Assembly: GCA_036172665.1 (NCBI GenBank)
Contig: CM069873.1
Coordinates: forward strand, 38,306,001 to 38,370,000
Reading direction: 5' to 3'
From: Prosopocoilus inquinatus
Lineage: Eukaryota; Arthropoda; Insecta; Coleoptera; Lucanidae
Length of the DNA stretch: 64,000 nucleotides
Of this stretch, positions 1,912-40,033 are shown piece by piece. The translations under genes were made by a program, and so were the position numbers. Positions within the stretch are counted from its first letter, which is position 1. Each line of letters begins with the position of its first letter. The notes below the pieces were generated by a model. That model saw only the letters and a list, made by a program, of their open reading frames with translations, did not search any database and was not told the DNA's origin.

Positions 1912-1991
1912 TACGGTACAAAGAAAGTGAGGGGGGGAGTGCGGCTAGTCTAGTTTAGTTTATTTGTTGTTTTAAAGTTTAATATCAGTTT

Positions 1992-3785: not shown

Positions 3786-4225
3786 ATATTTACATATTAA
3801 TTTGTATTTACTTACATTTAGACATATACCGGCTGTTTCAAATTGGCTGTGCACTAAAGGAATCTCCTAAACCGTACGAGATACAGGTATGGTTAAATGG
3901 AAGAAAAGTTGCACGAATCAATGTCTAACTCGTATTCATTAACAGAATGATTTTTTTATTATTTCTTCTTGAGATGTTAATAAAAATGTAAAAAAATCGA
4001 TTTTCTTTTTCACTCTGTATCTCTTTTATTATACATAATTTTGAAATTCTGATTTAACTTTCTACGGGCACTTTTTGATTCTGCTTCGAATAGGAGTAAT
4101 AGAATTGAAGCCAAACGTTTCGACTTTCCACGACCATCATCAGTTTCAATTTTTTAAATACAACTTATGTCTTTTTATTGTTCTCTTCGATGGCATTTTT
4201 TCTCCTGATTGTAATGATACATCAC

Positions 4226-8249: not shown

Positions 8250-8891
8250 GCCAAAGCTGAGATACTAATCAAGCAAGTTATATTAGAACCAATCGATATT
8301 TGTTGGTAAAAATTAATTTTCGCAAGTGCAATGCATTATTAAAATAACGATACAGAAAAACTTTAAATAGCTTATTATAATTTACACTATAGCTAAGAAA
8401 ATGAACTAGAAATTTGAAATTATGTATTAAATAAAATTTTCATATAAAATCTGAATTATTTAAGCTTCAAATTAACATCAACTATTAAGTGTGATAGATG
8501 ATTACAATCAGGAAAAAAGATGCTATCGAACAGAGTAATAAAAAGACTTAAGTTGTATTTAAAAAATCGAAACTGATGATAGTCGCGGAAAGACGAAACG
8601 TTCGACTTCAATTCTATTACTCCTATTCGAAGCAAAATCAAAAAGTGCCTGTATAAAGTTAATTGAGAATGTCAAAATTATGTATAATAAAAGACCTACA
8701 GAGAGAAAAAGAAAATCGATTATTTTACATTTTTATTAATATCTCAATAAAAAATAAGAAAAAAATCATTCTCTCAATGGATACGAATTGAGCATTGATT
8801 CGTGCAACTTTTCTTCCATTTAACCGAATTTGTATCTCTTACGGTTTAGGAGATCCCTTCAGTGCACACCCAATTTGAAACAGCCGGTATA

Positions 8892-9060
8892 TCTTTTAGG
8901 ATGATTAGATTGTTGTTAGTTTTTAAAATTTAATGATTTTATTACGATGATTAGGTTGTTTTTAGATGTTTTTAAGTGCTTTTAAGTTGGTAGCGTACTG
9001 AATATGGCAGCTTAGCTGCCGAAATATGTATCTACGGATATAAAAATATTGTGGGCGGAC
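8892..9060 (+). mobile_element. Penelope-like 3' terminal fragment
   Basis: The region repeats the organisation of the 3' end at 1.98 kb: T/A-rich lead-in, hammerhead-like fold, then sequence containing GTGGGCGGACATTAAT. No coding part survives. It directly abuts the right TIR of the foldback element. Confidence 0.55.
8994..9036 (+). ncRNA. Degenerate hammerhead motif, Penelope fragment
   Basis: Stem I CGUA (8994-8997) pairs with UACG (9033-9036). Stem II is a perfect 6-bp helix (9006-9011 with 9015-9020, loop UUA). GAA is at 9021-9023, stem III is AUAUGUAU and the cleavage base is C9032. The 5' core reads CUGAAUA, so the catalytic G8 is U. The fold is preserved while a key residue is lost, so it is predicted inactive. 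Confidence 0.6.
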
Positions 9061-11935: not shown

Positions 11936-12820
11936 AATCCCACCGAATAATGCCATATACGAAAACCATTAAAACGTGCGAAGTCGTAGAGGCTTTAGTT
12001 CTTAATCACTTTATTTCATTTTTTTACACCACATATTTAAGGACTAGAACTACAAAATGACCAATGGAAATTTCGCTACGATTAGTTGTTAATTAGAAAA
12101 AAAAAAATAATTAACATTTAAAAATCGTAGTTGAACTTTACAGTAAAATTAAATATACTTCCAGTTCATATTTTCGAAAACGCGTTGGTCACTTTGTAGA
12201 TTGAAGTTTTGTTAACAAAACCGCGAAAACAGCTTTAAAAAATATGTATATATAATGTAGTTATGAATTCGCGCGTTTTGCATGTTTTTCATGAATTATT
12301 TTCATGAGGCGTGCACGGATTTCTCCCACTATCAATTGTGGGGGAGGTAACGAAAGAGGAAGCAAACATATCTTCTCTTTCTGTTCCTCTAAAAATTGTT
12401 TAAGTTAAATATTGCGGCTGGAAACAAAAATTAGCTTGTGACAGGCTGGTGGCAGGTTGGATTCGAGCCGGGAGTGACCGAATATTGTCGATGTTTGAAA
12501 AATACTTCGAAAGCATTTTGAATCATTTATTTACGTGAATTGTAATTTTAACATAGATATAGGCAAAAGAAACGAAAAATTGAAATTACACTTGTACATA
12601 CTATAAAATTGAAATGTTTGTCGGAAGTATGAATGTTAGAAATGTTTGCAACAATGACAATAACGAGAATATAATAATAGAAGAAAATATTTTTAAATTA
12701 ATTACAAAATATTTAAATGTTTGTCAATAAATTTCGAACTCCGTTACTAAATTTTTCTAACTGGAGTTTTATTAATGTGTTAATAAAATTTAATTATGTA
12801 AAAGTTTTTAAACATATAAA
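11936..12820. other. No recognised gene
   Basis: AT-rich interior of the interrupted Copia element. A short less AT-rich stretch (12420-12490) and several A-runs are present, but no frame or repeat that I can assign. Confidence 0.5.
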
Positions 12821-13003
12821 ATAGCGACATCTTACTATCGCTTTTTGACCTAACATTGCAGTAGGATAGACAAATTGAAGCGGGATTTGTTCCTAATGAG
12901 TCCCCCATGCAAGGCGGCCATTCTTGCTGTCAAAGCATAATGAAAGATTTTAGAAAAATTTTGTGCAAATCGTTTTTGATTGCAGTGAGAACCTCGAGCA
13001 GCC

Positions 13004-13046
13004 TCTGGACAGCTGTTTCAGCCCTGCTTGGGGCTTCTTCAGCAGA
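13004..13046 (-). ncRNA. Hammerhead ribozyme, retrozyme copy 2
   Basis: Core CUGAAGA, stem II AGCCC/GGGCU, GAA, palindromic stem III ACAGCUGU and cleavage base C are identical to the consensus of the main array, on the minus strand. Confidence 0.82.
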
Positions 13047-13307
13047 AACGTAGCTCGACATTCCCACTGCAGACCAAAAACGACTTGCCCAATTTATTCG
13101 CAAATGCGATGTAAGAATGATGAACATATAAAACAGCGACATCTTACTATCGCAAATCCCGCTTCAATTTGTCTATCCTACTGCAATGTTAGGTCAAAAA
13201 GCGATAGTAAGATGTCGCTATTTTATATGTTCATCATTCTTACATCGCATTTGCGAATAAATTGGGCAAGTCGTTTTTGGTCTGCAGTGGGAATGTCGAG
13301 CTACGTT

Positions 13308-13350
13308 TCTGCTGAAGAAGCCCCAAGCAGGGCTGAAACAGCTGTCCAGA
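13308..13350 (+). ncRNA. Hammerhead ribozyme, retrozyme copy 3
   Basis: Consensus hammerhead on the plus strand: stem I UCUG/CAGA, core CUGAAGA at 13312-13318, then stem II, GAA, ACAGCUGU and C as cleavage base. It faces away from the copy at 13004-13046. Confidence 0.82.
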
Positions 13351-13791
13351 GGCTGCTCGAGGTTCTCACTGCAATCAAAAACGATTTGCACAAAATTTTT
13401 TTGTAAAAGTTTTTGTTATGAATGAATATGTCTTCATGTAAATAAGCTGTAACACTAATTATGTTTCTACAAAAATTACTAATTAAAACTTAGAAAAAAA
13501 TATTAAATTAAAAATATGCGTTGTTAATGAGGACAATAAATAATACTAGCAATTGAATGTATTTTCGGAAAAAAAATTCAAGTTCAATATTGTTAGTAAT
13601 TTGACATTACTTCTATAAAGATATTTTTTGCGTTGAAATCGAGATTCCAAAATTAATATTAATTAGAGTCAATAGAATAGTCAAGTGCTAATTAATATAG
13701 TTCTTCTAGAAGAAATCCGAGACATGTGGTTCTAACCGGAAGCCAAGAATTCAACCGTAGTTCTTTATAATAAAGGAGTTGATCGCATGTA

Positions 13792-16102: not shown

Positions 16103-17640
16103 GTATAAAGTAAGATAACAGTCTTCAACAGTGGCATGAGCGCTTGGCTCATGAGGTTAAGCGTTATGTATGGCGCGTGTTGCGTGACAGATCTATAAAT
16201 GTAGAAAATCGTAATGAATTTTGTACTGGATGTCCTTTTGGTAAGAAACACAGAAAATCACTATCACTCGAGAAAAGAAAGAGCCACAAGTCCTGGTGAA
16301 ATTATTTTTGCTGACTTATGTGGTCCAATGGAAGTACCACCATTCGGAGGTTCCAGATATTTTCTTGTAATCAAAGGCGATTACACGCGCTTTAGGCGGG
16401 TTTTCTTCTTGAAACAGAAGACTGAAGTACCAGAGTGCATTAAATTTTTTCTTGCTGAAGCAAAGACAGCGGGTCGGGTTGTTAAAATAATTATGAACGA
16501 TGAGGAAAAGAGTTTGTAAATTTCAACGTTAAAACTATTCTCAATAAATGGGGCATTATAACTAGAACAGTTATGCCTTATACGCCCGAGCAAAATGGAG
16601 GTATTGAACGAGAAATGAGGACTCTAATAGAAAGTGCGCCAAGAAAGTGCGCCATACCAAAGACTTACCAAAATATTTATGGGCAGAAGCCATGAATACT
16701 GCCCGCCGTATAATAAATGGTACGGGTCCGTCAATGGTCACTGCTAAAACACCAATTGAAACGGTGAGAGCAGTTTTAACTGTTGCTGCAATGGTACGGG
16801 TCCGTCAATGGTCACTGCTAAAACACCAATTGAAACGGTGAGAGCAGTCTTAACTGTTGCTGCAAATGAAAGATTGTTATTACGCCAGTTTGATGTTAAA
16901 ACAGCGTTTTTGTACGACACTCTTAATGAGGAGATATACATGAATCAACCTGAGGGATACAACGATGGCACAGATCGTGTCTGGAAATTGAAAAAGAGTT
17001 TGTATGGTCTAAAACAAAGTCCGAGATGTTGGAATCAGCAGTTTCTCAATTCAATGAGTAAACTAGGATTCAACAGAAGTGAATCAGATCCGTGCTTACA
17101 CGTTTATCATAAAAATGGCAAGAAAACCATTGTAGTTTGTTACGTTGATGATGGTCTTATAGCAGGAACTGACGTGACTGATATTCATAACTTTTTGATT
17201 GAGATGAAAAAGGAAATTAAGGTCTCACCTCCTGATTGCTACTTAGGCTACATAGGCATTGTGATAAAATAAAACGACGATGGACGGATCTAGACGAAAA
17301 GCGTTTAAATAAGAAAATACCATATCGTGAGGCTGTGGGTAGTTTAATTTTCTTGATATCCGGAACACGACCAGATATTGCATACGCGGTAAGTTCAGTA
17401 GCACAAAATGTAGAAAATCCTACAGAAAATTCTTGGAGAAAAGTGAAAAGAATATTTCGTTACCTTAAAGGTACCATTAACTTTAGTCTTATATATAATC
17501 CTGAATAACAAAAGGATTTAATTGCCTTCAGTAATGCTGATTATGCTGCAGATAAAACACGACGTTCTAGAAGTGCTGTATTATGTTTTTATGCAGCAGG
17601 TGTACTGACATGGTTGAGCCGAAAACAAAAAAATATTTTT
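16103..17640 (+). pseudogene. Copia Pol remnant (integrase, RT, RNase H)
   Basis: In order: a GAG-pre-integrase fragment ('WHERLAHE'-like, about 16132), integrase core from 16214 ('FADLCGPM' and, after a shift, the 'PEQNGGIERE' catalytic Glu region near 16580), then RT ('RQFDVKTAFL' near 16884, 'YVDDGLIAGT' near 17140), and RNase H-proximal sequence ('GTRPDIAYAV' near 17363). At least four stops or frameshifts interrupt it. The integrase C-terminus and the first part of RT are missing: integrase similarity passes directly into the middle of RT. The piece is clearly dead. Confidence 0.85.
16717..16864 (+). repeat. 74-bp tandem duplication in Copia pol
   Basis: Segment 16717-16790 is repeated at 16791-16864 with one visible difference. 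It lies where integrase similarity passes into RT and further breaks the frame. Confidence 0.85.
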
Positions 17641-19790: not shown

Positions 19791-20199
19791 ACCAACCGAC
19801 AAAGAACGTTTTTTGAGATAAAAGTACCGACGGCCTCATATAATAAAATATTAGTTACACTAAAAATGTCCAAACGCCAAACAGCACGTATTGACCTTTT
19901 TTGGAAGGGGTAATAAGTCGTTTGACACAAATTAGAAGTTAATTTGCTAATAGTGTGTTATATTACTTTTGTTCAAGTTACACACTGAAGTTAACTAGCT
20001 TTCTTGTTTACTTTTTTTAAGTAGTTATTGAACTAAAAATATAAATGAACTGTTTTTAATGTAATCAGTTGCCTTATTGGCCAACATTTCTTTACTGAAA
20101 ACGTAAGGAAACAAAGTTTTCTTAATATAAAAAATAATAAATTCTGTACTTAACGGAAAATTTTGCATGTTAACAGATTTATATGACGTTAATTATTTT
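19791..20199. other. No recognised gene
   Basis: AT-rich spacer between the Tc1-like remnant and the retrozyme array. Nothing is supported. Confidence 0.5.
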
Positions 20200-20393
20200 G
20201 AACATATAAAATAGCGACATCTTACTATCGCTTTTTGACCTAACATTGCAGTAGGATAGACAAATTGAAGCGGGATTTGCTCCTAATGAGTCCCCCATGC
20301 AAGGCGGCCATGCTTGCTGTCAAAGCATAATGAAGGATTTTAGAAAAATTTTGTGCAAATCGTTTTTGATTGCAGTGAGAACCTCGAGCAGCC

Positions 20394-20436
20394 TCTGGAC
20401 AGCTGTTTCAGCCCTGCTTGGGGCTTCTTCAGCAGA
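20394..20436 (-). ncRNA. Hammerhead ribozyme, array unit A1
   Basis: Consensus hammerhead on the minus strand (CUGAAGA, 5-bp stem II, GAA, palindromic stem III, cleavage base C). Confidence 0.85.
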
Positions 20437-20705
20437 AACGTAGCTCGACATTCCCACTGCAGACCAAAAACGACTTGCCCAATTTATTCGCAAATGCGAT
20501 GTAAGAATGATGAACATATAAAATAGCGACATCTTACTATCGCTTTTTGACCTAACATTGCAGTAGGATAGACAAATTGAAGCGGGATTTGCTCCTAATG
20601 AGTCCCCCATGCAAGGCGGCCATGCTTGCTGTCAAAGCATAATGAAGGATTTTAGAAAAATTTTGTGCAAATCGTTTTTGATTGCAGTGAGAACCTCGAG
20701 CAGCC

Positions 20706-20748
20706 TCTGGACAGCTGTTTCAGCCCTGCTTGGGGCTTCTTCAGCAGA
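20706..20748 (-). ncRNA. Hammerhead ribozyme, array unit A2
   Basis: Identical to unit A1, exactly 312 bp away. The third minus-oriented unit is cut at the inversion before it reaches its ribozyme. Confidence 0.85.
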
Positions 20749-20978
20749 AACGTAGCTCGACATTCCCACTGCAGACCAAAAACGACTTGCCCAATTTATT
20801 CGCAAATGCGATGTAAGAATGATGAACATATAAAATAGCGACATCTTACTATCGCTTTTTGACCTAACATTGCAGTAGGATAGACAAATTGAAGCGGGAT
20901 TTGCTCCTAATGAATCCCCCATGCAAGGCGGCCGTGCTTGCTGTCAAAGCATAATGAAGGATTTTAGAAAAATTTTGT

Positions 20979-20992
20979 GCAAATCGATTTGC
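20979..20992. other. Palindromic inversion junction of the array
   Basis: The perfect 14-bp palindrome GCAAATCGATTTGC marks the switch from minus- to plus-oriented units. Its left half comes from the GTGCAAATCG site of the repeat and its right half from the ATTTGCGAATAA site, about 100 bp apart in the unit, so the flip used short complementary sequences. Confidence 0.85.
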
Positions 20993-21045
20993 GAATAAAT
21001 TGGGCAAGTCGTTTTTGGTCTGCAGTGGGAATGTCGAGCTACGTT

Positions 21046-21088
21046 TCTGCTGAAGAAGCCCCAAGCAGGGCTGAAACAGCTATCCAGG
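21046..21088 (+). ncRNA. Hammerhead ribozyme, array unit B1 (variant)
   Basis: All core residues are kept, but stem III reads ACAGCUAU (one C·A mismatch) and stem I ends CAGG for CAGA. The unit next to the inversion is thus the most diverged. Confidence 0.75.
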
Positions 21089-21357
21089 GGCTGCTCGAGG
21101 TTCTCACTGCAATCAAAAACGATTTGCACAAAATTTTTCTAAAATCCTTCATTATGCTTTGACAGCAAGCATGGCCGCCTTGCATGGGGGACTCATTAGG
21201 AGCAAATCCCGCTTCAATTTGTCTATCCTACTGCAATGTTAGGTCAAAAAGCGATAGTAAGATGTCGCTATTTTATATGTTCATCATTCTTACATCGCAT
21301 TTGCGAATAAATTGGGCAAGTCGTTTTTGGTCTGCAGTGGGAATGTCGAGCTACGTT

Positions 21358-21400
21358 TCTGCTGAAGAAGCCCCAAGCAGGGCTGAAACAGCTGTCCAGA
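21358..21400 (+). ncRNA. Hammerhead ribozyme, array unit B2
   Basis: Reference copy: stem I UCUG (21358-21361) with CAGA (21397-21400); core CUGAAGA 21362-21368; stem II 21369-21373 with 21380-21384; GAA 21385-21387; palindromic stem III 21388-21395; cleavage base C21396. The predicted monomer RNA runs from 21397 to 21708 (312 nt). Confidence 0.88.
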
Positions 21401-21669
21401 GGCTGCTCGAGGTTCTCACTGCAATCAAAAACGATTTGCACAAAATTTTTCTAAAATCCTTCATTATGCTTTGACAGCAAGCATGGCTGCCTTGCATGGG
21501 GGACTCATTAGGAGCAAATCCCGCTTCAATTTGTCTATCCTACTGCAATGTTAGGTCAAAAAGCGATAGTAAGATGTCGCTATTTTATATGTTCATCATT
21601 CTTACATCGCATTTGCGAATAAATTGGGCAAGTCGTTTTTGGTCTGCAGTGGGAATGTCGAGCTACGTT

Positions 21670-21712
21670 TCTGCTGAAGAAGCCCCAAGCAGGGCTGAAA
21701 CAGCTGTCCAGA
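21670..21712 (+). ncRNA. Hammerhead ribozyme, array unit B3
   Basis: Identical to B2 at 312-bp spacing. Confidence 0.88.
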
Positions 21713-21981
21713 GGCTGCTCGAGGTTCTCACTGCAATCAAAAACGATTTGCACAAAATTTTTCTAAAATCCTTCATTATGCTTTGACAGCAAGCATGGCC
21801 GCCTTGCATGGGGGACTCATTAGGAGCAAATCCCGCTTCAATTTGTCTATCCTACTGCAATGTTAGGTCAAAAAGCGATAGTAAGATGTCGCTATTTTAT
21901 ATGTTCATCATTCTTACATCGCATTTGCGAATAAATTGGGCAAGTCGTTTTTGGTCTGCAGTGGGAATGTCGAGCTACGTT

Positions 21982-22024
21982 TCTGCTGAAGAAGCCCCAA
22001 GCAGGGCTGAAACAGCTGTCCAGA
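21982..22024 (+). ncRNA. Hammerhead ribozyme, array unit B4
   Basis: Identical to B2 at 312-bp spacing. Confidence 0.88.
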
Positions 22025-22293
22025 GGCTGCTCGAGGTTCTCACTGCAATCAAAAACGATTTGCACAAAATTTTTCTAAAATCCTTCATTATGCTTTGACA
22101 GCATGCATGGCCGCCTTGCATGGGGGACTCATTAGGAGCAAATCCCGCTTCAATTTGTCTATCCTACTGCAATGTTAGGTCAAAAAGCGATAGTAAGATG
22201 TCGCTATTTTATATGTTCATCATTCTTACATCGCATTTGCGAATAAATTGGGCAAGTCGTTTTTGGTCTGCAGTGGGAATGTCGAGCTACGTT

Positions 22294-22336
22294 TCTGCTG
22301 AAGAAGCCCCAAGCAGGGCTGAAACAGCTGTCCAGA
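22294..22336 (+). ncRNA. Hammerhead ribozyme, array unit B5
   Basis: Identical to B2 at 312-bp spacing. Confidence 0.88.
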
Positions 22337-22605
22337 GGCTGCTCGAGGTTCTCACTGCAATCAAAAACGATTTGCACAAATTTTTTCTAAAATCCTTCAT
22401 TATGCTTTGACAGCAAGCATGGCCGCCTTGCATGGGGGACTCATTAGGAGCAAATCCCGCTTCAATTTGTCTATCCTACTGCAATGTTAGGTCAAAAAGC
22501 GATAGTAAGATGTCGCTATTTTATATGTTCATCATTCTTACATCGCATTTGCGAATAAATTGGGCAAGTCGTTTTTGGTCTGCAGTGGGAATGTCGAGCT
22601 ACGTT

Positions 22606-22648
22606 TCTGCTGAAGAAGCCCCAAGCAGGGCTGAAACAGCTGTCCAGA
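22606..22648 (+). ncRNA. Hammerhead ribozyme, array unit B6
   Basis: Identical to B2. The array breaks off about 50 bp downstream, at 22697. Confidence 0.88.
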
Positions 22649-22697
22649 GGCTGCTCGAGGTTCTCACTGCAATCAAAAACGATTTGCACAAAATTTT

Positions 22698-23230
22698 CCT
22701 GTTAATTATTTTATTTAAAAAGATCGAAACATCATAAACATCGTATAAAAAGACCCATGTATAAAACTGTAAATTTTTTGGAAAAGAACCAAACACCATT
22801 TTTGCAAAAGAGACAAAGCCAAAAAAATAATATGCGTAAATCCCATCGTAGTTCTTTAAATAAATATATTTTTCCTTTCAAAGTGTTCAAATGAGGTTAA
22901 CATATCAACAAATTTATTTTTTTAGTTAAAAAAACTAGTTTTTTGGTTATATTTTGAACGGTACTTACACACTTTATTTCAGACATATCAACAAACGTTT
23001 TAGGAATTTATCTGAACCGCCAGAATTCACTAAATACGAAAACAAATGACGATCGGAAACGTAACAAATGAGTACCGACTTTGTTATTTTTAATAGAATG
23101 CACATATTTTTTCGAATAAAAAAAGATATTTTTCTCCTAACTGCAAAAATATTAGTTCTACAATATTTGATTTCAGACGTCTTGCAATAATTAAGTTTCA
23201 AATTATATACAGGATCACTGGTAGGTAAGT
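22698..23230. other. No recognised gene
   Basis: AT-rich sequence with short frames lacking motifs. Nothing is supported. Confidence 0.5.
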
Positions 23231-23236
23231 TTATGC

Positions 23237-23540
23237 ATGCCGCAAAATTATTTCCAAATTAATGGGGATTTTTTTAGGCCAACCGAAGGGACTTCAATGG
23301 GAAACTGCTTGTTACCATATCTTGCTAATCTTTTTATGTGTAATTTAGAAACTTCACTTGAAGAAACTAGTTGTAATTATTTCACAAGAATTTGGTTTAG
23401 ATATGTGATGATGTTCTTGCTGTTTTTAATACAAAGGAATGCAGAATGGAGGACTTTTTGAATATTTTAAATTCTAAATTTCCTAGTAGTAAATTCACGA
23501 TTGAGAAAAAGGTTGCAAATTATTCTAAAAACCTCTGATT
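23237..23540 (+). pseudogene. Penelope-like RT fragment
   Basis: A 74-codon frame encodes RT motif B ('EGTSMGNCLLPYLANLFM') and leads to a damaged motif C, where 'RYVMMF' stands in place of the catalytic YVDD (about 23398). A frameshift near 23455 is followed by 'NILNSKFPSSKFTIEKK', the usual continuation. Its sequence differs clearly from the element at 25-1911, so it is a second, older Penelope lineage. Confidence 0.8.
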
Positions 23541-26184: not shown

Positions 26185-26997
26185 ATGCGACGTCGTGTCA
26201 AAACAGATTACACTGCGAGAAGCACCTTAAAACGAAAAGGTCGTGGTTTACTTAATACGTTAATTAATAAACTACCAGTAGAGTTACACTTACCAGGTTA
26301 CAATTACTGCGGTCCGGGCACAAAATTAGACGTTCGACTTAAAAGAGGTGTGAATGCGTTGGATGAGGCGTGCAAGCAACACGATATCGCATATTCTGTA
26401 AGTAGCGATTTAGAAAAACGTCACGAAGCAGATAAAAAATTGTATCAAGCGGCAGTGAAAAGAGTGAAGAGTACAGAAGCGGGATTTGGTGAAAAAGCAT
26501 CTGCGTTATCTGTAGCCGCCTTAATGAAAGCTAAGACAAAGCTTGGAATGGGAAACGGAGTGAAGAGAAAGCGTAGTAAAAGGAAGAAGCGTGGTGGTAA
26601 ATTATCATTTCGACAAGCTGTAAGGAAAGCACAACATGCAATTTCACGTAATGGTAACAAGAGTCTGTTAGAAAATGTGAAATTGGCGCAGGCTGTTTTA
26701 AAGAAGGACCACAAGAAAATAAGACCTCCACGTCAAAGAGTGATACCAATTCCTAAGAGAGGAGGGTTTTTACCTTTAATTCCATTATTTGCGGCTTTGG
26801 GCGCAATAGGATCGCTCGGCGGCGGTGCAGCTGCAATTGCTAAGGCGGTAAACGATGCAAGAGCTGCGAAAGAGCAACTGAAAGAGGCAGAGCGACATAA
26901 TCGCGCTATGGAAACAAAAGCAGTGGGAAGCGGAATTTATATAAAACCTTACAAAACAGGGTGTGGGTTATATTTACGATCCAATCCAAAAAACTGA
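26185..26997 (+). CDS. Phospholipase A2 / core-protein fusion (minor virion protein)
   Basis: The N-terminal part is a parvovirus VP1u-type PLA2: Ca-binding loop 'YCGPGT' near residue 33 and catalytic His-Asp in 'CKQHDIAYS' near residue 62, followed by a Tyr-containing helix. In parvoviruses this enzyme opens endosomal membranes during entry. A very basic segment follows ('KRKRSKRKKRGG', near residue 130), then a hydrophobic glycine/alanine stretch ('FLPLIPLFAALGAIGSLGG', near residue 194) like adenovirus core protein X/mu, and a C-terminal 'GSGIYIKPY...GCGLYL' motif seen in adintovirus core proteins. The frame is intact (270 residues). The C-terminus overlaps the protease frame by about 37 bp. 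A truncated copy lies at 49.7-50.2 kb. Parvoviral origin of the domain is inference. Confidence 0.85.
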   Translation: MRRRVKTDYTARSTLKRKGRGLLNTLINKLPVELHLPGYNYCGPGTKLDVRLKRGVNALDEACKQHDIAYSVSSDLEKRHEADKKLYQAAVKRVKSTEAGFGEKASALSVAALMKAKTKLGMGNGVKRKRSKRKKRGGKLSFRQAVRKAQHAISRNGNKSLLENVKLAQAVLKKDHKKIRPPRQRVIPIPKRGGFLPLIPLFAALGAIGSLGGGAAAIAKAVNDARAAKEQLKEAERHNRAMETKAVGSGIYIKPYKTGCGLYLRSNPKN

Positions 26998-27368: not shown

Positions 27369-27614
27369 GTAAGAATGTAGTACTTGAAAGATGGTCAACA
27401 TGGAATCTTCACCCGTTGCGTGTACATTCACTCTTACGGGAACTGAATCAGTTTTATTTTGTGAATTGAATCCACCACTATACCTCGATGAAGAGGCACC
27501 ATATGAAATGTGCTTGTTAAATTTTGAAACGTTTAATGCAATACCTAACATAGATGAAAGTAATAATTTGATACATTATGAAGAAACAGGAAAAACGACG
27601 GTTTGGAAAACTAT

Positions 27615-27940
27615 TGTTACGTTTCTCGGGTTTTAATTTATTTATTTAAACGAATAAAACACTCGATAAAAACTTAACCGTAATTTAATAAAGCTTAAAA
27701 ACTAATTTATTTGTAACAATTTATTTTCACACTAAAATCTAACTTCGACGATCGCTGTTCGAATTCGACTGACTCGTGAGTCAACTTTGGCCCATTTTAT
27801 ATCCTTTGCGGCCGTCTAGAATCCTCCATGCTGGAAAAGTCTAGTCTGTTCGATGTAGGCCCCGGTGACGTGACGGCCGATGACGCATAACAGCGAACCG
27901 ACTTCTTGACGCCTTGAAATAAGCCGGGTGGCGCGCCACA
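27615..27940 (-). repeat. Gypsy 3' LTR
   Basis: 326 bp, TG..CA, matches the copy at 33917-34242. On the element's strand it lies downstream of integrase and the purine tract. Confidence 0.95.
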
Positions 27941-29896
27941 CTGCCCCCTTCTTAAAAACGTTTCGTCTGGAAATGTTGCTGCTCGAAATAGTCTTGAAGG
28001 AGGGTGTCGGTATCTACATGCTGGCCCATTCTTGCAACTTCCCGTCTGGAAGAAGTAGCAGTCTACGGTTTTGCTGTTGCTGACTCTTGCCTGTGGGTGG
28101 TGGCTGCAGACTAGGACTTCAATTCCCGTTCTGTGGAAGATGACTTCCAGCATGCTTCGAATTACTCTCCAGTCTAGTCCGTCCAATCCGCAGCCCAATT
28201 TGGGGATGGCTAACTTCATCTGATGGTTCTCTATTAGCTGTCTCCTCAGGCTATATAGGACTCTCCACATACTTTGATAGTCAGGTTTACCGCTTGATGT
28301 CTTCTTAGTGACTAAATAATGCACGTGGCGCCTCCGATCTGCCGTCGAATCAATGATCTGCAAGCTCTTGCCTACCACGGGATGCTGTCTTCGTAGCTCC
28401 TCGATTTGGCCAAATTTCTTCCTAAACACCTGAGCGATTCCTTTGGACATTTTCAGGTCTTCTGCTACGCAGTGGGCCAGACTGTACTCCAGTGGCACTT
28501 TAAAGAGATCTTGTTGCTTCTCCGTGGTCACTCCAAGCCGTGCCTTGCTTCCTTCGGCGTAATGAGACATGAAGGTTTCGAAGTTCACTTCGGAAACTTG
28601 CGCCCTTTGTACTGTCCCTTCATCTGCTTCTCCATGGTAAGGGGCTATCCGGTTGAAGTGGATTACTTTGGGTTTGCCATGGGGGACCTTCTTGATGCGG
28701 TAAACGACGTCGTTGATCCGTTTCATCACTTTGTAAGGACCTTCCCAAGAGGTCTGCAATTTTGGGGAGAGGCCTCGACGTCTTTGGGGATTATAAAGCC
28801 AGACCAGTGCTCCAGGTTGGTATCCCCCGTGTTGAGCGTTGATGTCATTGTGCTCCTTCATCCGATCGCTGGCCGTCTGTATATTGTGACGCACTTGGTT
28901 GTGGATGTCATCCATTTTCCTGCGTAATTTGTTCACGTAATCTTCGTCGGCAGAGACTTCGCCAGGCTTCACACCAAACTTCAGGTCGCAGGGCACTCTC
29001 GGCTCTCGCCCGAATACCACTTTCGCGGGAGTCTCCCCTGTTGTCTCATGAACAGATGAGCGGTGTGCCATTAGAAACAGGGGGATGTACGTATCCCAGT
29101 CCCTCTGATGATCGGAAACGACCTTGGACAAATGTCGGTTGATGGTTCTATTGAACCTTCCGTCCGACTGTGGGTGGAGTGCAGTTGTTCTAGTTTTTCG
29201 TACGGCGAGCAGAGTACACACGTTCTTGAACAAGGCCGATTCAAAGTTCCTTCCTTGGTCTGAATGCAGTTCAATAGGTGCACCATACCGACTGATCCAT
29301 TCCCTGACAAGGACTTCCGCAATAGTGACTGCCTCTTGGTTAGGTAGGGCGTAAGCTTCAACCCACTTGCTAAAGTAGTCCATTACCACGACGATGTACT
29401 TGTTTCCACCATTCGTTTCTGGAAACGGGCCGGTTACATCGATGGCAACTCTCTCAAATGAACTTCCAACGTTGTACTGTCTCATGGGAGCCTTACCCCG
29501 CCTGTGGGGACCGTTACTGGCTGCGCAGACTGCACACTTTCTGCACCAATCCTTCACGTCTTCCTTGCAGTTCACCCAGTAAAATCTTTCGCGCACCTTT
29601 TCCATAGTCTTCTTAACTCCCAGATGCCCTCCCGAAGTTCCATCGTGAAGTTCCCTCAGAACTTCTGGCACTCTATTCTTGGGGATTAGTAACTGTGTCT
29701 TCTGTTCCATGCCTTCCTGATTCTCTATGCTTCGTCTCAGAAGACCACGATCCAACACTATGGAGTCCCACTGCGCCCAGTTGCACATGGTGCTACCTCT
29801 TCCCAGGTAGGCCTCGCGTCCCTGCTTTTCCACTCTAGCACTAATTTCAAATCCGGGTCGTTCTCCTGGTCTGTTCGCAGTTCTTCGCCTTGCCAT
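27797..29896 (-). CDS. Gypsy integrase with TARG1-like macrodomain and CCCH finger
   Basis: From the N-terminus: H2C2 zinc finger ('HDGTSGGHLG..CRKCAVC', residues about 83-125), integrase core with first Asp in 'AIDVTGP' (about 153) and second in 'HSDQGRNF' (about 207); then a chromodomain-like GPY/F region ('GPYKVMKR', 'VIHFNRIAPYHG', about 385-425). The usual catalytic Glu is absent: 'QSDG' runs directly into 'RFNRT', three residues being deleted. After residue 460 comes a macrodomain closely resembling TARG1/OARD1 ('LAHCVAEDLKMSKGIAQVF', 'LVTKK', 'IPKLGCGLDGLDW'), keeping the Lys and Asp used by that ADP-ribose hydrolase. A CCCH finger ('CYFFQTGSCKNGPACRYRH', about 622-641) follows. The N-terminal 35 residues overlap the RT frame and are not authentic; a frameshift near 29.78 kb separates the two parts of Pol. 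The last residues read into the LTR. Confidence 0.88.
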   Translation of the reverse strand: MARRRTANRPGERPGFEISARVEKQGREAYLGRGSTMCNWAQWDSIVLDRGLLRRSIENQEGMEQKTQLLIPKNRVPEVLRELHDGTSGGHLGVKKTMEKVRERFYWVNCKEDVKDWCRKCAVCAASNGPHRRGKAPMRQYNVGSSFERVAIDVTGPFPETNGGNKYIVVVMDYFSKWVEAYALPNQEAVTIAEVLVREWISRYGAPIELHSDQGRNFESALFKNVCTLLAVRKTRTTALHPQSDGRFNRTINRHLSKVVSDHQRDWDTYIPLFLMAHRSSVHETTGETPAKVVFGREPRVPCDLKFGVKPGEVSADEDYVNKLRRKMDDIHNQVRHNIQTASDRMKEHNDINAQHGGYQPGALVWLYNPQRRRGLSPKLQTSWEGPYKVMKRINDVVYRIKKVPHGKPKVIHFNRIAPYHGEADEGTVQRAQVSEVNFETFMSHYAEGSKARLGVTTEKQQDLFKVPLEYSLAHCVAEDLKMSKGIAQVFRKKFGQIEELRRQHPVVGKSLQIIDSTADRRRHVHYLVTKKTSSGKPDYQSMWRVLYSLRRQLIENHQMKLAIPKLGCGLDGLDWRVIRSMLEVIFHRTGIEVLVCSHHPQARVSNSKTVDCYFFQTGSCKNGPACRYRHPPSRLFRAATFPDETFLRRGQCGAPPGLFQGVKKSVRCYASSAVTSPGPTSNRLDFSSMEDSRRPQRI

Positions 29897-31551
29897 TTGT
29901 CGTCAACAATGGCTGTCCTCGCAGTCGTGGCTACTTTCTCGTCCAAACGACTACAGTGCTTACAGTCTTCGGCACAGGATCTTCTCGACAAAGCATCGGC
30001 ATTTCGATGGCTAGTTCCTGCCCGATGCTGAATTTCAAAATCGTACTCCTGAAGTCGTTCGATCCATCGTGCAACTTGCCCTTCTGGGTTCTTGAAACGG
30101 AGAAGCCATTTTAGAGCGGCATGGTCGGTCCTCAGGAGGAAGCGTCTACCATACAAGTACTTGTAGAAATGTTCTATTGTTTTTACGACGGCTAGCAATT
30201 CCCTTCTTGTGACGCAATAGTTTCGTTCCGGCTTTGATAGGACTTTACTGAAGTAGCCGATCACCTTCTCTTGCCCCTCTTGTATCTGGGAGAGTACGCC
30301 ACCAATCCCAACGTTGCTAGCATCTGTGTCCACGACGAACTTGCCTTCCGGGAGAGGATAACTCAGAATAGGAGCACTAATCAAGTACTGCTTTAGTTGT
30401 TCAAAGCCAATTTGACACTGTTGGTCCCATTCAAATGGACGACCTTCTTCAGTGAGTTTTGTCAACGGCTTAGCAATGTCTGCAAATCCAGGAACGTAGC
30501 GCCGATAGTAAGTGCACAGGCCAAGGAAAATCCTTATTTGGTGTTTATTTCTGGGATTTGGCCAGTCTTTCACCACCTGAATCTTCACAGGGTCCACGGC
30601 GATTCTATTTCCATTAACAATGTGCCCCAGGTAATTCACTTCCTTCTGGAACAGGTGACACTTCTTGAGGCTAAGCTTTAGTCCAGCTCCGCGAAGCCGC
30701 TGGAACACTCCTTCCAGGTTCCTTAGGTGGTCGTCGAACGTCTTTCCCACGACAATTATGTCGTCAAGGTACACCATGCACGTTGTCCAGGACAGACCTT
30801 TCAGAACCGTCTCCATTAACCTCTCGAATGTCGCTGGGGCATTACATAATCCGAATGGCATCACTGTGAACTGCCACAGACCCATACCAATGGAAAACGC
30901 CGTCTTTTCTCGATCTTCAGGCGCCAGTTCCACTTGCCAATATCCACTCTTTAAGTCCAAAGTTGAGAAGATCTTTGAGCCGGCCAGGGTGTCCAGAGTA
31001 TCATCAATCCGTGGCAGGGGATAGCTGTCCTTCTTGGTGATATTGTTGAGTAACCGGTAGTCTACACAGAACCTGGTGGACCCATCCTTCTTCTTCACAA
31101 GCACTACTGGTGACGCCCACGGGCTGCTTGATGGTTCTATCACATTATCCTTTTCCATCTCGCGAATAATGCGTTCCGCTTCCTCACGCTTCGCCAACGG
31201 TAATCGCCTTGGAGCTTGACGGATAGGTCTTTCTTCTCCAGTCTCTATTTTGTGTTTCACGACATCAGTTCTTCCCTTGGATCCATTTTCTACCTCAACT
31301 ACATCTTGATAGCGGCCGATCAGATTCTTTGCTTTTGTCTTCTGGTCTGGAGTCAATTCCTGGGCTGTTGACATAACCATTTCCCATAATTTCCTTGGGA
31401 CTTTCGCTTCTGGCACGTTTGCTTCAAGGTGGCGGGAGATGGAGGACACCATGGTGCAGCTTCCCAAGATGGTTCCTTTCTTGATATTGACGGAGAAACA
31501 ATTGACGTTCATCAGGTGGACAGGTACTTCCTCCTTCGCCGTCAACAACAT
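29758..31551 (-). CDS. Gypsy reverse transcriptase / RNase H
   Basis: RT motifs: 'FSTLDLKSGYWQV' (motif A, near residue 195), 'FGLCNAPATFERLM' (motif B, near 234) and the catalytic 'YLDDIIVVG' (near 261). RNase H follows with 'FVVDTDASNVGIGGVL' (near 409) and 'RTDHAALKWLL' (near 475), ending in an 'NADALSRR' tail (near 518). The protein copies the element's RNA. The same frame is separated from the protease frame by a single in-frame TAA at 31600-31602. The C-terminal 20 residues or so lie past a frameshift into integrase. The domain itself appears intact. Confidence 0.9.
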   Translation of the reverse strand: MLLTAKEEVPVHLMNVNCFSVNIKKGTILGSCTMVSSISRHLEANVPEAKVPRKLWEMVMSTAQELTPDQKTKAKNLIGRYQDVVEVENGSKGRTDVVKHKIETGEERPIRQAPRRLPLAKREEAERIIREMEKDNVIEPSSSPWASPVVLVKKKDGSTRFCVDYRLLNNITKKDSYPLPRIDDTLDTLAGSKIFSTLDLKSGYWQVELAPEDREKTAFSIGMGLWQFTVMPFGLCNAPATFERLMETVLKGLSWTTCMVYLDDIIVVGKTFDDHLRNLEGVFQRLRGAGLKLSLKKCHLFQKEVNYLGHIVNGNRIAVDPVKIQVVKDWPNPRNKHQIRIFLGLCTYYRRYVPGFADIAKPLTKLTEEGRPFEWDQQCQIGFEQLKQYLISAPILSYPLPEGKFVVDTDASNVGIGGVLSQIQEGQEKVIGYFSKVLSKPERNYCVTRRELLAVVKTIEHFYKYLYGRRFLLRTDHAALKWLLRFKNPEGQVARWIERLQEYDFEIQHRAGTSHRNADALSRRSCAEDCKHCSRLDEKVATTARTAIVDDKWQGEELRTDQENDPDLKLVLEWKSRDARPTWEEVAPCATGRSGTP

Positions 31552-31599
31552 TTTCGCAACGAGGACTCCTCTTCCAATCTTCTGATCATCAGTATTAGG

Positions 31600-32244
31600 T
31601 TAAACCATAATGACTTGCCCATCTTGAAAAACACCGTTCAATTTTGCGTCGACGATAACCTCAGTCCTGCTGGGTAATACAACGTCTTCAGCGAGGACTA
31701 CTCGAGCGGCCACGTCTCCTCGTTGATGTAGAACCAACTCCTCATTATTGACCACCAATACGCCACGCTTTAAGTCCAATTGAAACCCGTGGGCACACAT
31801 GACGTCCATGCCCAAAATTGCCTCGTCCTCTATGTCCGCTACCAGTGCACGGTGTTTTATTGGAGTTGAACCAATGGTGATGATAACCTCTACTTCACCG
31901 TGGACAGTTGCTGATGTTCCAGTTGCAGTTTTCAGTCTCCACTTGGTCGGCTCGGTGAGTCCAGATGACTTGATGACGTCGGGTCTTAGGATGGTCTTCG
32001 TCGCACCCGTATCCAACAACATGGTGTGAGGAATGTTATCAATGGTAACATCCACGAAGACACTGCTGGTTAACTGCCGTAGGGATATTACTTGTTTGGC
32101 TTTCGTCTTTGGGGGCCTTTGAATACGGGTCGACGTTTGCCCCTCTGCACCGACCCGGCTTAGTTTAACTGTGGCTTCCTTGGATCCTGTCTGGGCTTTG
32201 GACATCGGCTGCGAACATGTCCTTCCTCCTGGCAATTCCAGCAC
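31600..32244 (-). CDS. Gypsy aspartic protease
   Basis: A retropepsin-like domain carries the catalytic 'LLDTGATKTIL' near residue 80 and the flap/hydrophobic 'AILGMDVM' near 145. It overlaps the end of Gag in another frame, as expected for a frameshift-fused Gag-Pro-Pol. The frame ends in TAA at 31600-31602; beyond this stop the same frame continues into RT, so the stop looks like a point mutation. Confidence 0.85.
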   Translation of the reverse strand: MLELPGGRTCSQPMSKAQTGSKEATVKLSRVGAEGQTSTRIQRPPKTKAKQVISLRQLTSSVFVDVTIDNIPHTMLLDTGATKTILRPDVIKSSGLTEPTKWRLKTATGTSATVHGEVEVIITIGSTPIKHRALVADIEDEAILGMDVMCAHGFQLDLKRGVLVVNNEELVLHQRGDVAARVVLAEDVVLPSRTEVIVDAKLNGVFQDGQVIMV

Positions 32245-33803
32245 ACCAGCGGCTTCTTCTGCTTGAAGACCTGTTCCACAATGCGGCGAACATCCTCGGC
32301 GGTGGTATACTCCCTGGGTCTCTCCTTTATAGCAGATCCCACCTTGGCGTTGGCGGATTCTTCCTCTTCTTCCTCTTGGAAGTCCATAGCCGCTCGCACC
32401 TTGACATGCCCTCTTGAGACTCGTCTCGCCGCTTCAAATTCCAAGGCATAAGCCAATGCGTTCTTGGACGTCTTCGGATGGGTCATTCTCAATGCCTGCT
32501 GGTTGTCTGGGTCACGGATTCCATCTATGAAGGTCTGCACCGTCAAACATTTGAGGAATTCAACAGGAGCTGTGGGATATGCCAACTGGGCCAGACGAGC
32601 TACGTCTGCTTCGAATTCCTGAAGACTTTCTCCGGATTTCTGACAGCGATTCCTCAACTGCGCATGGTATACCTCGGTCAGATGGGCCTGTCCGTAACGC
32701 ATTTCCATCCTATTCACCAGCTTGTCGAAGTCTTCTTGTTCCTCTGGTGGCATCGTCTGTAGCACATCGATAGCGTCCCCTCTCAAGGCCACAATTAACG
32801 AAGTGGCTTTCTCGCGGGCCGTCCATCTGTTTGCCTTTGCTGCTGCTTCGAACTTTCTGAAGTAGTTGGGCCAAGAAGACTTTCCATCGAATGTTGGTGG
32901 TTTTATTTTCAATTTCGAATTTTCTGCTTGTCCTCCCACAATTCGGATTTCATTATTTTCTAGTATTTCTACTGGTGGCTGATCCCCGAACACTCGCAAC
33001 CCCGCCATGATTTGTTCCAAATTTTTGATTTTGTTATCCTGCTGGAATATTATTTCTTCCACATTTTCTTGCAGGTTTCTTGTTTCTTCCGATATTTTTA
33101 CCACTAGTTTATCTTCAAGTCCTTTCGTCTGTTCTAGAAATTCACCCTTCAAATTTCCGGACTGTTCTAGAAGTTTCTCGTCGAAATTTCTGGATTGCTC
33201 TAGAAATTTCTCGTCTAAGTCTCTAGATTGTTCCAACAATTTATTTTGTAATTTGTCGAAATTTCCAGATTGTTCTAGAAGTTTCTCCTCTAAATTTCTG
33301 GATTGTTCTCGAAGCTTCTCTAAATTTCCAGACTGTTCTTGAAACTTCTCGTCCAAATTTCTGGATTGTTCTCGAAGTTCGTCCTTGAATTTTCCAGATT
33401 GTTCTAGAAATTTCTCGTCCAAATTTCTGGATTGTTCTCGAAGTTCGTCCTTGAAATTTCCAGATTGTTCTCGAAGTTCTTCCTTGAAATTTCCAGATTG
33501 TTCTAGAAGCTTCTCGTCCAAATTTCTGGATTGTTCTCGAAGTTCGTCCTTGAACTTTCCAGATTGTTCTCGAAGTTCGTCCTTGAAATTTCTGGATTGT
33601 TCTCGAAGTTCACCTTTCAAGATTTTATTGAAATCGACGGGACCACACGAAATTTCGAAAAGGAACGTCTCTGGATCTTCACCAGCTGTCAACAAATCGG
33701 ATCGGAGACGCTGTTGAAGTGCGCCTTTCAAACCACAGGTTTCTAACTCTCGTTCTTCCAATTCGGTTTTTAATTCGGCCACTTTTAAGTCTTTCAACAA
33801 CAC
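32160..33803 (-). CDS. Gypsy Gag with SAP motif, hendecad coiled coil and zinc knuckle
   Basis: Residues 4-37 match a SAP DNA-binding motif ('LKVAELKTELEER..LKGALQQRL'). Residues about 64-245 consist of some 15 copies of an 11-residue unit of the type DELREQSRNLD, encoded by 33-bp DNA repeats (33083-33614); the period suggests a right-handed hendecad coiled coil. A retrotransposon Gag domain follows ('WPNYFRKFEAAAKANRW', about 312) and a CCHC knuckle ends it ('CWNCQEEGHVRSRCP', about 524). The 547-codon frame is intact. Confidence 0.88.
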   Translation of the reverse strand: MLLKDLKVAELKTELEERELETCGLKGALQQRLRSDLLTAGEDPETFLFEISCGPVDFNKILKGELREQSRNFKDELREQSGKFKDELREQSRNLDEKLLEQSGNFKEELREQSGNFKDELREQSRNLDEKFLEQSGKFKDELREQSRNLDEKFQEQSGNLEKLREQSRNLEEKLLEQSGNFDKLQNKLLEQSRDLDEKFLEQSRNFDEKLLEQSGNLKGEFLEQTKGLEDKLVVKISEETRNLQENVEEIIFQQDNKIKNLEQIMAGLRVFGDQPPVEILENNEIRIVGGQAENSKLKIKPPTFDGKSSWPNYFRKFEAAAKANRWTAREKATSLIVALRGDAIDVLQTMPPEEQEDFDKLVNRMEMRYGQAHLTEVYHAQLRNRCQKSGESLQEFEADVARLAQLAYPTAPVEFLKCLTVQTFIDGIRDPDNQQALRMTHPKTSKNALAYALEFEAARRVSRGHVKVRAAMDFQEEEEEESANAKVGSAIKERPREYTTAEDVRRIVEQVFKQKKPLVCWNCQEEGHVRSRCPKPRQDPRKPQLN

Positions 33804-33916
33804 TTTTCTCGTAGCAATTGTTGTTTTTCCGATACTGTACTTATTTAATAATCTGATTAAATTTAATTTACTTTAAATTGTTTATTTATTTGCACAAACC
33901 CCACACCTGACACCAC

Positions 33917-34242
33917 TGTTACGTTTCTAGGGTTTTAACTTATTTATTTAAACGAAGAAAACACTCGATAAAAACTTAACCGTAATTTAATAAAGCTTAA
34001 AAACTAATTTATTTGTAACAAATTATTTTCACACTAAAATCTAACTTCGATGATCGCTGTTCGAATTCGACTGACTCGTGAGTCAACTTTGGCCCATTTT
34101 ATATCCTTTGCGGCCGTCTAGAATCCTCCATGCTGGAAAAGTCTAGTCTGTTCGATGTAGGCCCCGGTGACGTGACGGCCGATGACGCATAACAGCGAAC
34201 CGACTTCTTGACGCCTTGAGCTAAGCCGGGTGGCGCGCCACA
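33917..34242 (-). repeat. Gypsy 5' LTR
   Basis: 326 bp, TG..CA. On the element's strand it precedes the primer-binding site and Gag. Confidence 0.95.
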
Positions 34243-34960: not shown

Positions 34961-36054
34961 CGTCAAAGGGTGAACACCATCATTTTGGGAGTAACTGATA
35001 AAATTAAATTGGACACTTCAATAACCAGTATGGAGTTCCATTCACACTTACAATTCAGTCCATCATTTGGTAATAACGATGAAGTGCGTATCACCCTACC
35101 TGAGATCGACATTACACCTTCCCTTGCGAAAGTTATTTGTACGTAGAGGGAAGACTGCGTTTGGTTAGTGGTAATACTAAACACAGTGCGACGGCACAAT
35201 TGATAAATAATCCGGTAGCTTATATGTTTAGCGAGATTAGATAGCTTCTGAACGGAGTACAGGTGGATTGGGTAAGAAATGTTGGCATAACATCAACAAT
35301 GAAAGGGTATTTTTCTTTTACTCGCAACGACACAGCAAAATTGGAAAATGCAGGATGGATCCAGGAGAATGATAAAATGAGCGATATACTCAACGTTAAG
35401 GGAGATTTCTCAGCAAGTGTACCTTTAAAGACACTATTAGGTTTTGGGGAAGTTTATAAAAAGATCGTCTTGAATATGAGGCAAGAATTAGTATTGATCA
35501 GAGCAAATGATGACGTTGATGCAGTTGTGGAAACAAACAAGACGGAAAAGATTAAATTAATAATTGACAAAATTGTATGGCGTATACCTCATATTTCTGT
35601 TGGACTACGTGAGCAATTGGCTCTAACGAGAGTGACAGTCAGAGATGTTGAAATACAAATTCCTTTCAGAAGCTGGGAGTTGCACGAGTATCCGTCGCTC
35701 CCAACTACGACAAGTCATTCTTGGACAGTAAAAACGGCTCCGCAGTTGGAAACGCAAAGGTGCATAATAATCGGTTTTCAAACTAAGCGAAAGGGTGTCG
35801 TCGATGCAAACATGAGTCTGTTTGATGACGTTAAGTTAAAATCATTAACAGTATTTCTAAATGGCGAACGCTATCCGTACGACAACATAGAAATTGATAT
35901 TGAAAATAACAAATACACCGTTATATACGACATGTATTCTAGATTTCAGGAAAAAAATTATTATCATCGTGAAAGCAGTCAACCCTGGTTCAATCCAAAA
36001 GGATTAGCTAGTTGCCCATTAATAGAAATTGACTGCACTTTTCAGAGGATGTAA
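34961..36054 (+). pseudogene. Hexon-like major capsid protein (double jelly-roll), broken
   Basis: The coding similarity starts near 34980 ('DTSITSMEFHS', 'LPEIDITP'), shifts frame near 35140 and meets a stop near 35243, after which a 263-residue frame (35263-36054) is open to the end. That part carries strongly conserved Maverick/adintovirus capsid segments ('VDWVRNVGITSTMKG', 'IDKIVWRIPHI', 'EIPFRSWELHEYP'-like, and 'NPKGLASCPLIEIDC' near the C-terminus). The protein would form the trimeric capsomers. At least two lesions make this copy defective. Only this copy is present in the window. Confidence 0.8.
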
Positions 36055-39330: not shown

Positions 39331-39510
39331 TACGCCTTCGTTACGCCTTCGTGACGCCCAGAAAATGGAAAGGGAAGAGTAGGGATAGAAGTGGGGAGAG
39401 GGCTTTCTTCCCCCCCCCCCCCGGTTGACCCAGATTCCGCGGAAACAGAAAGTTACCCCCACCAAACTCCGCCCAGCGCCCACTAAGTCCCGCCCAGTCT
39501 CCTCCCATTC
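39331..39510 (+). promoter_or_regulatory. Enhancer-like GC-box region
   Basis: Against an AT-rich background this block holds two TTACGCCTTCG repeats plus GTGACGCC, several CGCCCA boxes (GC-box-like), a C-run and the palindrome TTCCGCGGAA (39435-39444). It lies 300-500 bp upstream of a TATA box. Copies are at about 41874-42050 and 61780-61960. Confidence 0.5.
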
Positions 39511-39807
39511 ATCCTCTTTTACTGCTACTGCAAATGGAAACAGGATGTTATAAAAATAAATAATAAAAAAAAAATTATGATGCGCGTTCGGTTTGACCTT
39601 ATACAACTTTAGTTTTGAATAACATTACGTTAAGGATGCTGTAATGCAAAATACGTATTGCATTATTTCTGGGTAAGGTGTTCTTTCACTTTTCGATGTT
39701 CTGGTTACGCGTGTTTGTTATGTGACCTTTTATAATGTTAATTTTGAATAACATATTACATAATTTCTTACGTGCAATTTTAGAAGGTTTACCTTCAACT
39801 TTTCGAG

Positions 39808-39870
39808 TATAAAAGGATTCATTTAGTTCGGATAAACTCACAAGTTACTTGTACAGTTAATCTACTGGTA
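39808..39870 (+). promoter_or_regulatory. TATA promoter and 5' splice site, SP-rich gene copy 1
   Basis: TATAAAAGG at 39808-39816, a likely start about 30 bp on (TCACAAG, 39838), and a donor GTAAGT at 39868. A matching acceptor (GCATGCCAG) ends at 40033, just before the first coding ATGs. Confidence 0.65.
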
Positions 39871-40033
39871 AGTGCTCTTACTTCTTAATTCATTAATAGA
39901 TCTATAGTATGCTACTCCATTTTCTCCAGATATATCTGTTCTATATCTGTTTGTTTAACAATTTAACTGTAAGTATTATTAAGTAAGATTTACGTTTTAA
40001 TGTTTTAATATACTCCGTATTTTTGCATGCCAG

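Follow-up and report, generated by a model that had tools for sequence, protein, structure and literature searches.

How did an array of 312-nt repeats, each carrying a hammerhead ribozyme motif, come to lie in the genome of the beetle Prosopocoilus inquinatus? The array occupies positions 20200-22700 of a 64,000-nt stretch of DNA (GenBank assembly GCA_036172665.1, contig CM069873.1, positions 38,306,001 to 38,370,000 of the forward strand), which was analysed as a whole and is called the window below; all coordinates refer to it. The original prediction, made from the sequence alone, had described 20200-22697 as a run of direct repeats and as a satellite of the retrozyme type. This interpretation was partly supported by our analysis. 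The assignment to the retrozymes was upheld by the hammerhead type, unit size, GC content, tandem copies and target-site duplications. The satellite array was not: the locus represents a single insertion that has an inverted arm and is flanked by a 12-bp target-site duplication, so that two head-to-head arms replace the direct repeats, and the two other loci of the window are of the same kind. The best explanation, which we consider probable, is a metazoan-type retrozyme without long terminal repeats (non-LTR retrozyme) that was inserted by Penelope-type two-strand priming on circular RNA.

Using the pattern CUGANGA, a stem II of at least 3 bp and GAA in a consensus scan of both strands of the window, 11 cores belonging to one family of type I hammerheads were observed at three loci, in agreement with the number of motifs and loci claimed before. 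The array itself (locus 3) holds 6 of them on the forward and 2 on the reverse strand, locus 2 one per strand, and locus 1 one on the reverse strand. A 12th core match (30452, reverse strand) lies within a gypsy open reading frame (ORF) and is unrelated to the family. The motifs and the reference unit used throughout are as follows.

13312, 21050, 21362, 21674, 21986, 22298, 22610, forward strand: hammerhead cores from the consensus scan
20744, 20432, 13042, 2379, reverse strand: hammerhead cores from the consensus scan
21346-21410, forward strand: reference hammerhead motif, core CUGAAGA at 21362, predicted cleavage after C21396
20696-20760, reverse strand: hammerhead motif of the antisense arm of locus 3, core 20744; a second motif has its core at 20432
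21397-21708, forward strand: reference 312-nt unit, position 1 being the first base 3' of the predicted cleavage site

When the pattern was extended to ask for helix III, a permitted cleavage base and 4 paired positions in helix I, 10 of the 11 cores were retained, and 200 dinucleotide shuffles of the whole window yielded no match to this stricter pattern. The core lost was 21050, whose helix III is damaged by a G-to-A change; the claim of a full type I hammerhead in every unit stood for the remaining 10. Cleavage is predicted on the forward strand after 21084, 21396, 21708, 22020, 22332 and 22644, in steps of exactly 312 nt, and on the reverse strand at 20710 and 20398, again 312 nt apart, so the exact spacing of the predicted sites was borne out within each arm of the array. 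No Rfam match was obtained for the whole window at the gathering threshold, and a scan of 4 kb at E<=10 gave no hammerhead either. Focused Rfam scans of 96-base stretches covered 3 of the 11 copies (21362, locus 1 and 21050). Hammerhead_1 (RF00163) was aligned at full length to 21356-21402 (23.8 bits, E 3.8e-4) and to the locus 1 copy at 2339-2385 of the reverse strand (20.3 bits, E 0.0057), both scores being below the gathering score of 34, and no hammerhead match was found for the 21050 copy at E<=1. The proposed covariance-model check formally ended without a hit above threshold, with the two full-length alignments speaking for the motif. The hammerhead call was kept despite the Rfam cutoff, because more weight was given to the E-values of the focused scans, to the structural alignment over the full model length and to the shuffles, and we regard the hammerhead observation as confirmed. 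Matches to plant microRNAs over the inverted junction in the 4-kb Rfam scan were read as fold-back artefacts and rejected. Exact-pattern scans for the ribozyme core in the viral_contigs and genome_contigs collections gave no matches in either, as expected for an insect sequence.

Locus 3 is a single insertion of about 2.5 antisense and then about 5.5 sense units, arranged head to head. Loci 1 and 2 were found to follow the same two-armed plan, locus 1 in the opposite orientation, with arms of 0.57 to 1.1 units each. In the following list, arm ends are given as positions of the reference unit, and the two positions at which the outer ends fall are called sites A and B.

20188-20199: left target-site duplication of locus 3, GTTAATTATTTT, a 12-nt exact match to the right copy at the element boundary
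20200-20986, reverse strand: antisense arm of locus 3, about 2.5 units, outer end about 198-199 (site A), inner end about 36, from concatemer alignment and inverted repeats
20987-22700, forward strand: sense arm of locus 3, about 5.5 units, inner end about 215, outer end about 53-56 (site B)
22701-22712: right target-site duplication of locus 3, GTTAATTATTTT
12797-12809: left target-site duplication of locus 2, TGTAAAAGTTTTT, 13 bp, right copy at 13402-13414
12811-13153, reverse strand: antisense arm of locus 2, 343 nt or 1.1 units, outer end 197 (site A), inner end 167, core 13042
13152-13400, forward strand: sense arm of locus 2, 249 nt, inner end 118, outer end 54 (site B), core 13312
2276-2284: target-site duplication of locus 1, AAAAATAAG, 9 bp, other copy at 2742-2750
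2285-2576, reverse strand: sense-type arm of locus 1 (element on the reverse strand), inner end 79, outer end 60 (site B), core 2379
2574-2741, forward strand: inverted arm of locus 1, inner end 23, outer end 200 (site A)

The arms of locus 3 were aligned as 20199-20990 and 20983-22700, and their inner ends were trimmed by eye; the inner-end pair 36/215 had to be refined in this way because the aligner continued over mismatches. Target duplications were observed at all three loci, with 12, 13 and 9 bp for loci 3, 2 and 1 and an AT content of 85-92%. Comparing 3,969 random boundary pairs in the window, duplications of at least 9 bp were found in 3 and of at least 10 bp in none. The outer ends of the three insertions coincide, at 199, 197 and 200 for site A and at 56, 54 and 60 for site B (loci 3, 2 and 1, respectively), with 0-3 bases extra or ambiguous between the outer alignment ends and the duplications. 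Random ends reproduced both agreements in 2 of 400,000 simulations, for which the spread was set to the observed one. The inner ends vary from locus to locus (36/215, 167/118 and 23/79 in the same order), and LTR-like ends were not seen at any of the three. As aligned, arms reach 792, 343 and 1718 nt versus a unit of 312 nt, and arms longer than one unit therefore need a circular or multimeric template. Within locus 3, 7 internal variants were counted over about 8 unit lengths (positions 310, 4, 92, 84, 49, 88 and 108; 3 junction-side differences were excluded), and each is private to one unit. This pattern fits repeated copying of one template followed by later mutation and does not fit unequal crossing-over. 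As a side observation, the head-to-head arms of locus 3 (20190-21916) are 99% complementary over 801 nt with 125 nt between them; a read-through transcript would give long double-stranded RNA, a possible source of small RNAs.

The unit has a stop-free stretch of at most 103 codons and an ATG frame of 96 codons. Both arms of locus 1 lack 1 nt at unit position 124, which shifts this frame; for this reason protein coding was rejected and the frame looks like a by-product, as had been suggested. The pieces of locus 2 share 98-100% identity with the unit of locus 3, which makes the suggested recent activity reasonable for these two loci, while locus 1 is an older relative. Its 65-nt ribozyme differs from the locus 3 unit at 3 positions, namely the free N of CUGANGA (the core at 2379 reads CUGACGA), the cleavage base, changed from GUC to the still allowed GUA, and one position bordering the internal loop of helix I.

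By the features examined, the element fits the metazoan non-LTR retrozymes, a class assignment that rests on sequence. Those of coral, mussel and axolotl combine a type I hammerhead, a unit of 170-400 nt, a GC content below 50% and tandem copies with target duplications of more than 4 bp and a compact circular fold (Cervera and de la Pena, 2020, PMC7229834). The beetle element has a type I hammerhead (full pattern in 10 of 11 copies, RF00163 below the gathering score), a unit of 312 nt with 43.6% GC, tandem copies in the 2.5 + 5.5 units of locus 3, duplications of 9, 12 and 13 bp, no conserved protein coding, and a highly self-paired circular RNA, the latter by prediction. A short palindromic helix III favouring dimer cleavage is shared with the hammerhead repeats of newt and axolotl, and the monomer helix III of 2 bp plus a tetraloop corresponds to axolotl family 2 (PMC7229834). 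The axolotl genome holds about 126,000 motifs (PMC7229834), whereas here three dispersed insertions lie in 64 kb. Plant LTR retrozymes differ in all respects compared, having a type III hammerhead, a unit of about 700 bp and a 4-bp duplication. In contrast to the tandem repeats, which are the only arrangement in the accessible text of PMC7229834, all three copies found here are two-armed and head to head with fixed outer ends. The nearest published statement we found concerns the hammerhead-bearing W-elements of schistosomes, for which the accessible text mentions internal inverted repeats and, in one element, a presumptive target duplication (PMC8490949); such internal repeats differ from paired arms. 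Since no description of a two-armed insertion with fixed start sites was found in the openly licensed retrozyme literature, as far as its main text without supplements goes, the arrangement appears to be new within a known class.

The predicted folding of the RNA was analysed in silico. A free energy of -110.4 kcal/mol was calculated for the 312-nt circle, compared to -75.3 +/- 5.0 for 200 shuffles, none of which was as stable (z -7.0). The circle is predicted to be a rod with a multiloop, in which sites B and A fall into the two longest stretches left open, about 48-69 and 186-210, respectively; a random pair of positions was equally open in 1.7% of draws (P 0.017), a test made only after the sites were known. 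In the sense arm of locus 1, substitutions fell on 10 of 106 unpaired versus 4 of 185 paired positions of the predicted circle (Fisher P 0.008); the other arm, with 9 of 70 versus 6 of 98, showed no significant bias (P 0.17). In the isolated motif, GCUG of the catalytic core is predicted to pair with CAGC of helix III and so to mask the core (-26.8 versus -11.5 kcal/mol for the hammerhead fold drawn by hand), and likewise in the circle. Such masking is reported for plants and for some mussel circles, and not for most animals, in the accessible text of PMC7229834. Enforcing the hammerhead in the circle cost 6.0 kcal/mol (-106.1 versus -112.1), so the masking is modest. Two copies of the motif, co-folded in silico without constraints, gave a double hammerhead with a shared helix III of 8 bp at -57.5 kcal/mol versus 2 x -26.8. 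On a simple reading, tandem transcripts would be cut as dimers and the finished circle would be partly protected; this is a prediction, because secondary-structure energies ignore loop-loop contacts.

A mechanism that would yield insertions of this kind starts with transcription of tandem copies. Adjacent hammerheads would pair via their palindromic helix III, cut as dimers and free 312-nt monomers, which a host ligase would close to compact circles with a masked ribozyme core. A Penelope-type enzyme, combining reverse transcriptase (RT) and GIY-YIG endonuclease, would make a cut in each strand of an AT-rich target, the two cuts being 9-13 bp apart, and the 3' ends would then be extended on the circle, each from a fixed single-stranded start, either A at about 197-200 or B at about 54-60. 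Each complementary DNA (cDNA) would travel a variable distance round the circle before the two cDNA ends are joined. The outcome would be a target duplication enclosing a head-to-head pair of arms, which meet at a variable inner junction while their outer ends are fixed. Such scars are to be expected if both 3' ends of a staggered cut are extended from a preferred internal start and the cDNAs are then joined. From the arms and duplications we infer priming of both target strands, whereas the circular template, its ligation and Penelope as the enzyme would be the presumed parts of the model. A multi-unit cDNA on a primed circular RNA, perhaps with the DNA target as primer, has been proposed before (PMC7229834).

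Penelope-like elements are considered strong candidates for the helper of animal retrozymes (PMC7229834), LINEs (long interspersed nuclear elements) or Penelope-like elements being named elsewhere (PMC11722881). The window contains a candidate of the required type.

25-1911, forward strand: ORF of a Penelope-like element, RT plus GIY-YIG endonuclease (Pfam RVT_1 and GIY-YIG), candidate helper type
1996-2022, forward strand: minimal Penelope-type hammerhead-like motif, CTGAAGA, U, 6-bp stem II, GAAA, no helix III, 85 bp past the Penelope ORF

The distance from the end of this ORF to locus 1 is about 370 bp. Of its 652 homologues 120 were listed, and the best named one among these comes from Tribolium, with a springtail, two longhorn beetles and mosquitoes next in order; a search of solved structures with this ORF gave no match. 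The motif at 1996 was picked by eye for its stem II and position and had no Rfam match. By itself it means little, because the pattern is loose: of its 19 matches, 11 belong to the retrozyme family and 8, this one included, do not. Two further of these 8 lie in an inverted pair of a 0.4-kb repeat (3789-4225 and 8491-8927, 89% over 402 bp), which carries CTGATGA...CGAAAC, maybe another minimal hammerhead of the Penelope type. The pair was considered as a Penelope pseudo long terminal repeat (pLTR) and could not be resolved into one. Another Penelope-like RT fragment at 23228-23520 is 45-53% identical to the ORF at 25-1911.

Published work on Penelope enzymes provides the counterparts for the scars. 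A single purified enzyme from Anolis cuts and extends both DNA strands, favours AT-rich DNA and starts reverse transcription at two sites within the RNA, with no homology to the cut DNA and in agreement with the 'tail' of genomic copies (PMC11167929). Penelope copies of the rotifer Adineta carry head-to-head inverted pLTRs, often 8-10 bp duplications, and the tail on one inverted pLTR (PMC3846280). Taken together, and by analogy, the Anolis and rotifer observations would predict the scars described here. Shared with Penelope-like elements (PMC11167929, PMC3846280) are the head-to-head inverted repeats, AT-rich targets, short duplications, two internal RT start sites and a hammerhead on the RNA. 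The unit differs from them in having no RT/GIY-YIG ORF, being non-autonomous and not a Penelope, in lacking sequence in common with the Penelope ORF close to locus 1 or with the 3' flank of that ORF, in starts that lie about 140 nt apart, and in arms that may exceed the unit length.

The main rival explanation is that the same retrozyme was moved by a LINE-type enzyme through ordinary twin priming on linear or circular RNA. Twin priming by LINE-1 yields a head-to-head inversion together with target duplications, and at all three targets the T-rich 3' ends on the side of site A speak for it as well. However, twin-primed LINE inversions begin at variable internal positions, whereas the three loci here share theirs; by eye, no added A-tail was seen at the arm ends of the three loci, and RT domains were found from Penelope, gypsy and copia elements only (Pfam, 20 of 26 ORFs of at least 150 amino acids, 64 kb being a small sample). 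We consider a LINE-type enzyme unlikely, though a real contender.

Much less probable, and already disfavoured by the data above, is a satellite that grew by unequal crossing-over, was inverted later and carries the hammerheads as passengers. The 5.5 + 2.5 near-identical units at one locus would suit such an origin; target duplications tightly flanking all three loci, outer ends that agree across insertions with different duplications, and the lack of any variant common to several locus 3 units would not. Fixed ends and flanking duplications could also be read as those of a non-autonomous DNA transposon rearranged inside, yet inspection by eye shows no inverted-repeat relationship between the two ends, the duplication length varies (9, 12 and 13 bp) and the inner junctions differ at each locus. 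This reading was rejected and is given the smallest chance of all.

We are aware that a number of points weigh against Penelope-type priming on circular RNA. To the Rfam results below threshold, the openness of the sites tested with hindsight, the unbiased second arm of locus 1 and the modest masking have to be added the small set of three insertions and the fact that a linear multimeric template is compatible with the data as well. Comparing the unit with window positions 1-2285, which hold the Penelope ORF of an element whose 5' end lies outside the window, similarity of chance length only was found. The PAc enzyme of Anolis needs RNA from its own ORF start in vitro, and its start site is the same on both strands (PMC11167929), unlike the insertions here, in each of which one arm ends at A and the other at B. 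The distance between the two sites, about 140 nt, compares with 30-40 nt for Penelope tails. In the rotifer study head-to-head copies are explained by self-priming and not by two-strand priming, and some copies have no duplication (PMC3846280). Finally, an RT-binding motif downstream of A and B was sought and rejected, as the weak motif common to the 3' side of both sites was not significant (P 0.07).

Several other mobile elements share the window. Ty3/gypsy-type ORFs on the reverse strand (SAP plus zinc knuckle, RT-RNase H, integrase) lie between direct repeats 98% alike at 27610-34211; the best named homologue of the polymerase among 120 listed was from the leaf beetle Gonioctena (71% identity). 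A copia-type RVT_2 fragment at 16808-17272 has its start overlapped by a 74-bp tandem duplication (98%, 16716-16865). Long near-identical inverted repeats extend over 38851-63569 (e.g., 39407-41396 with 59894-61883, 99%), a region resembling a Polinton/Maverick-type element. The following ORFs lie inside it.

55618-56562, reverse strand: rve integrase
53700-54344, forward strand: Endonuclease_7
49513-50181, reverse strand: phospholipase A2-like

Outside these repeats, ORFs at 35263-36054 and 26185-26997 encode a double jelly-roll-like domain (E 8.3e-71) and another phospholipase A2-like domain.

For animal retrozymes in general, we see an even chance that the circular RNA itself serves Penelope-like enzymes as a rolling-circle template with two primers. 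Extension of both target strands after the cut would begin at two dedicated open start sites, and insertions would consist of head-to-head arm pairs whose arm lengths record the travel of the RT round the circle. According to the accessible text of a 2020 review, retrozyme repeats have no conserved motif revealing the helper (PMC7761336). The insertion scars described here offer a signature of this kind, and they point to the long-suspected Penelope-type enzyme as the presumable mover of the retrozyme. They also provide a precise prediction for sequenced animal genomes, namely fixed outer ends, variable inner junctions and duplications of 9-13 bp. If true, these insertions would be direct genomic evidence of target-primed reverse transcription on circular RNA.

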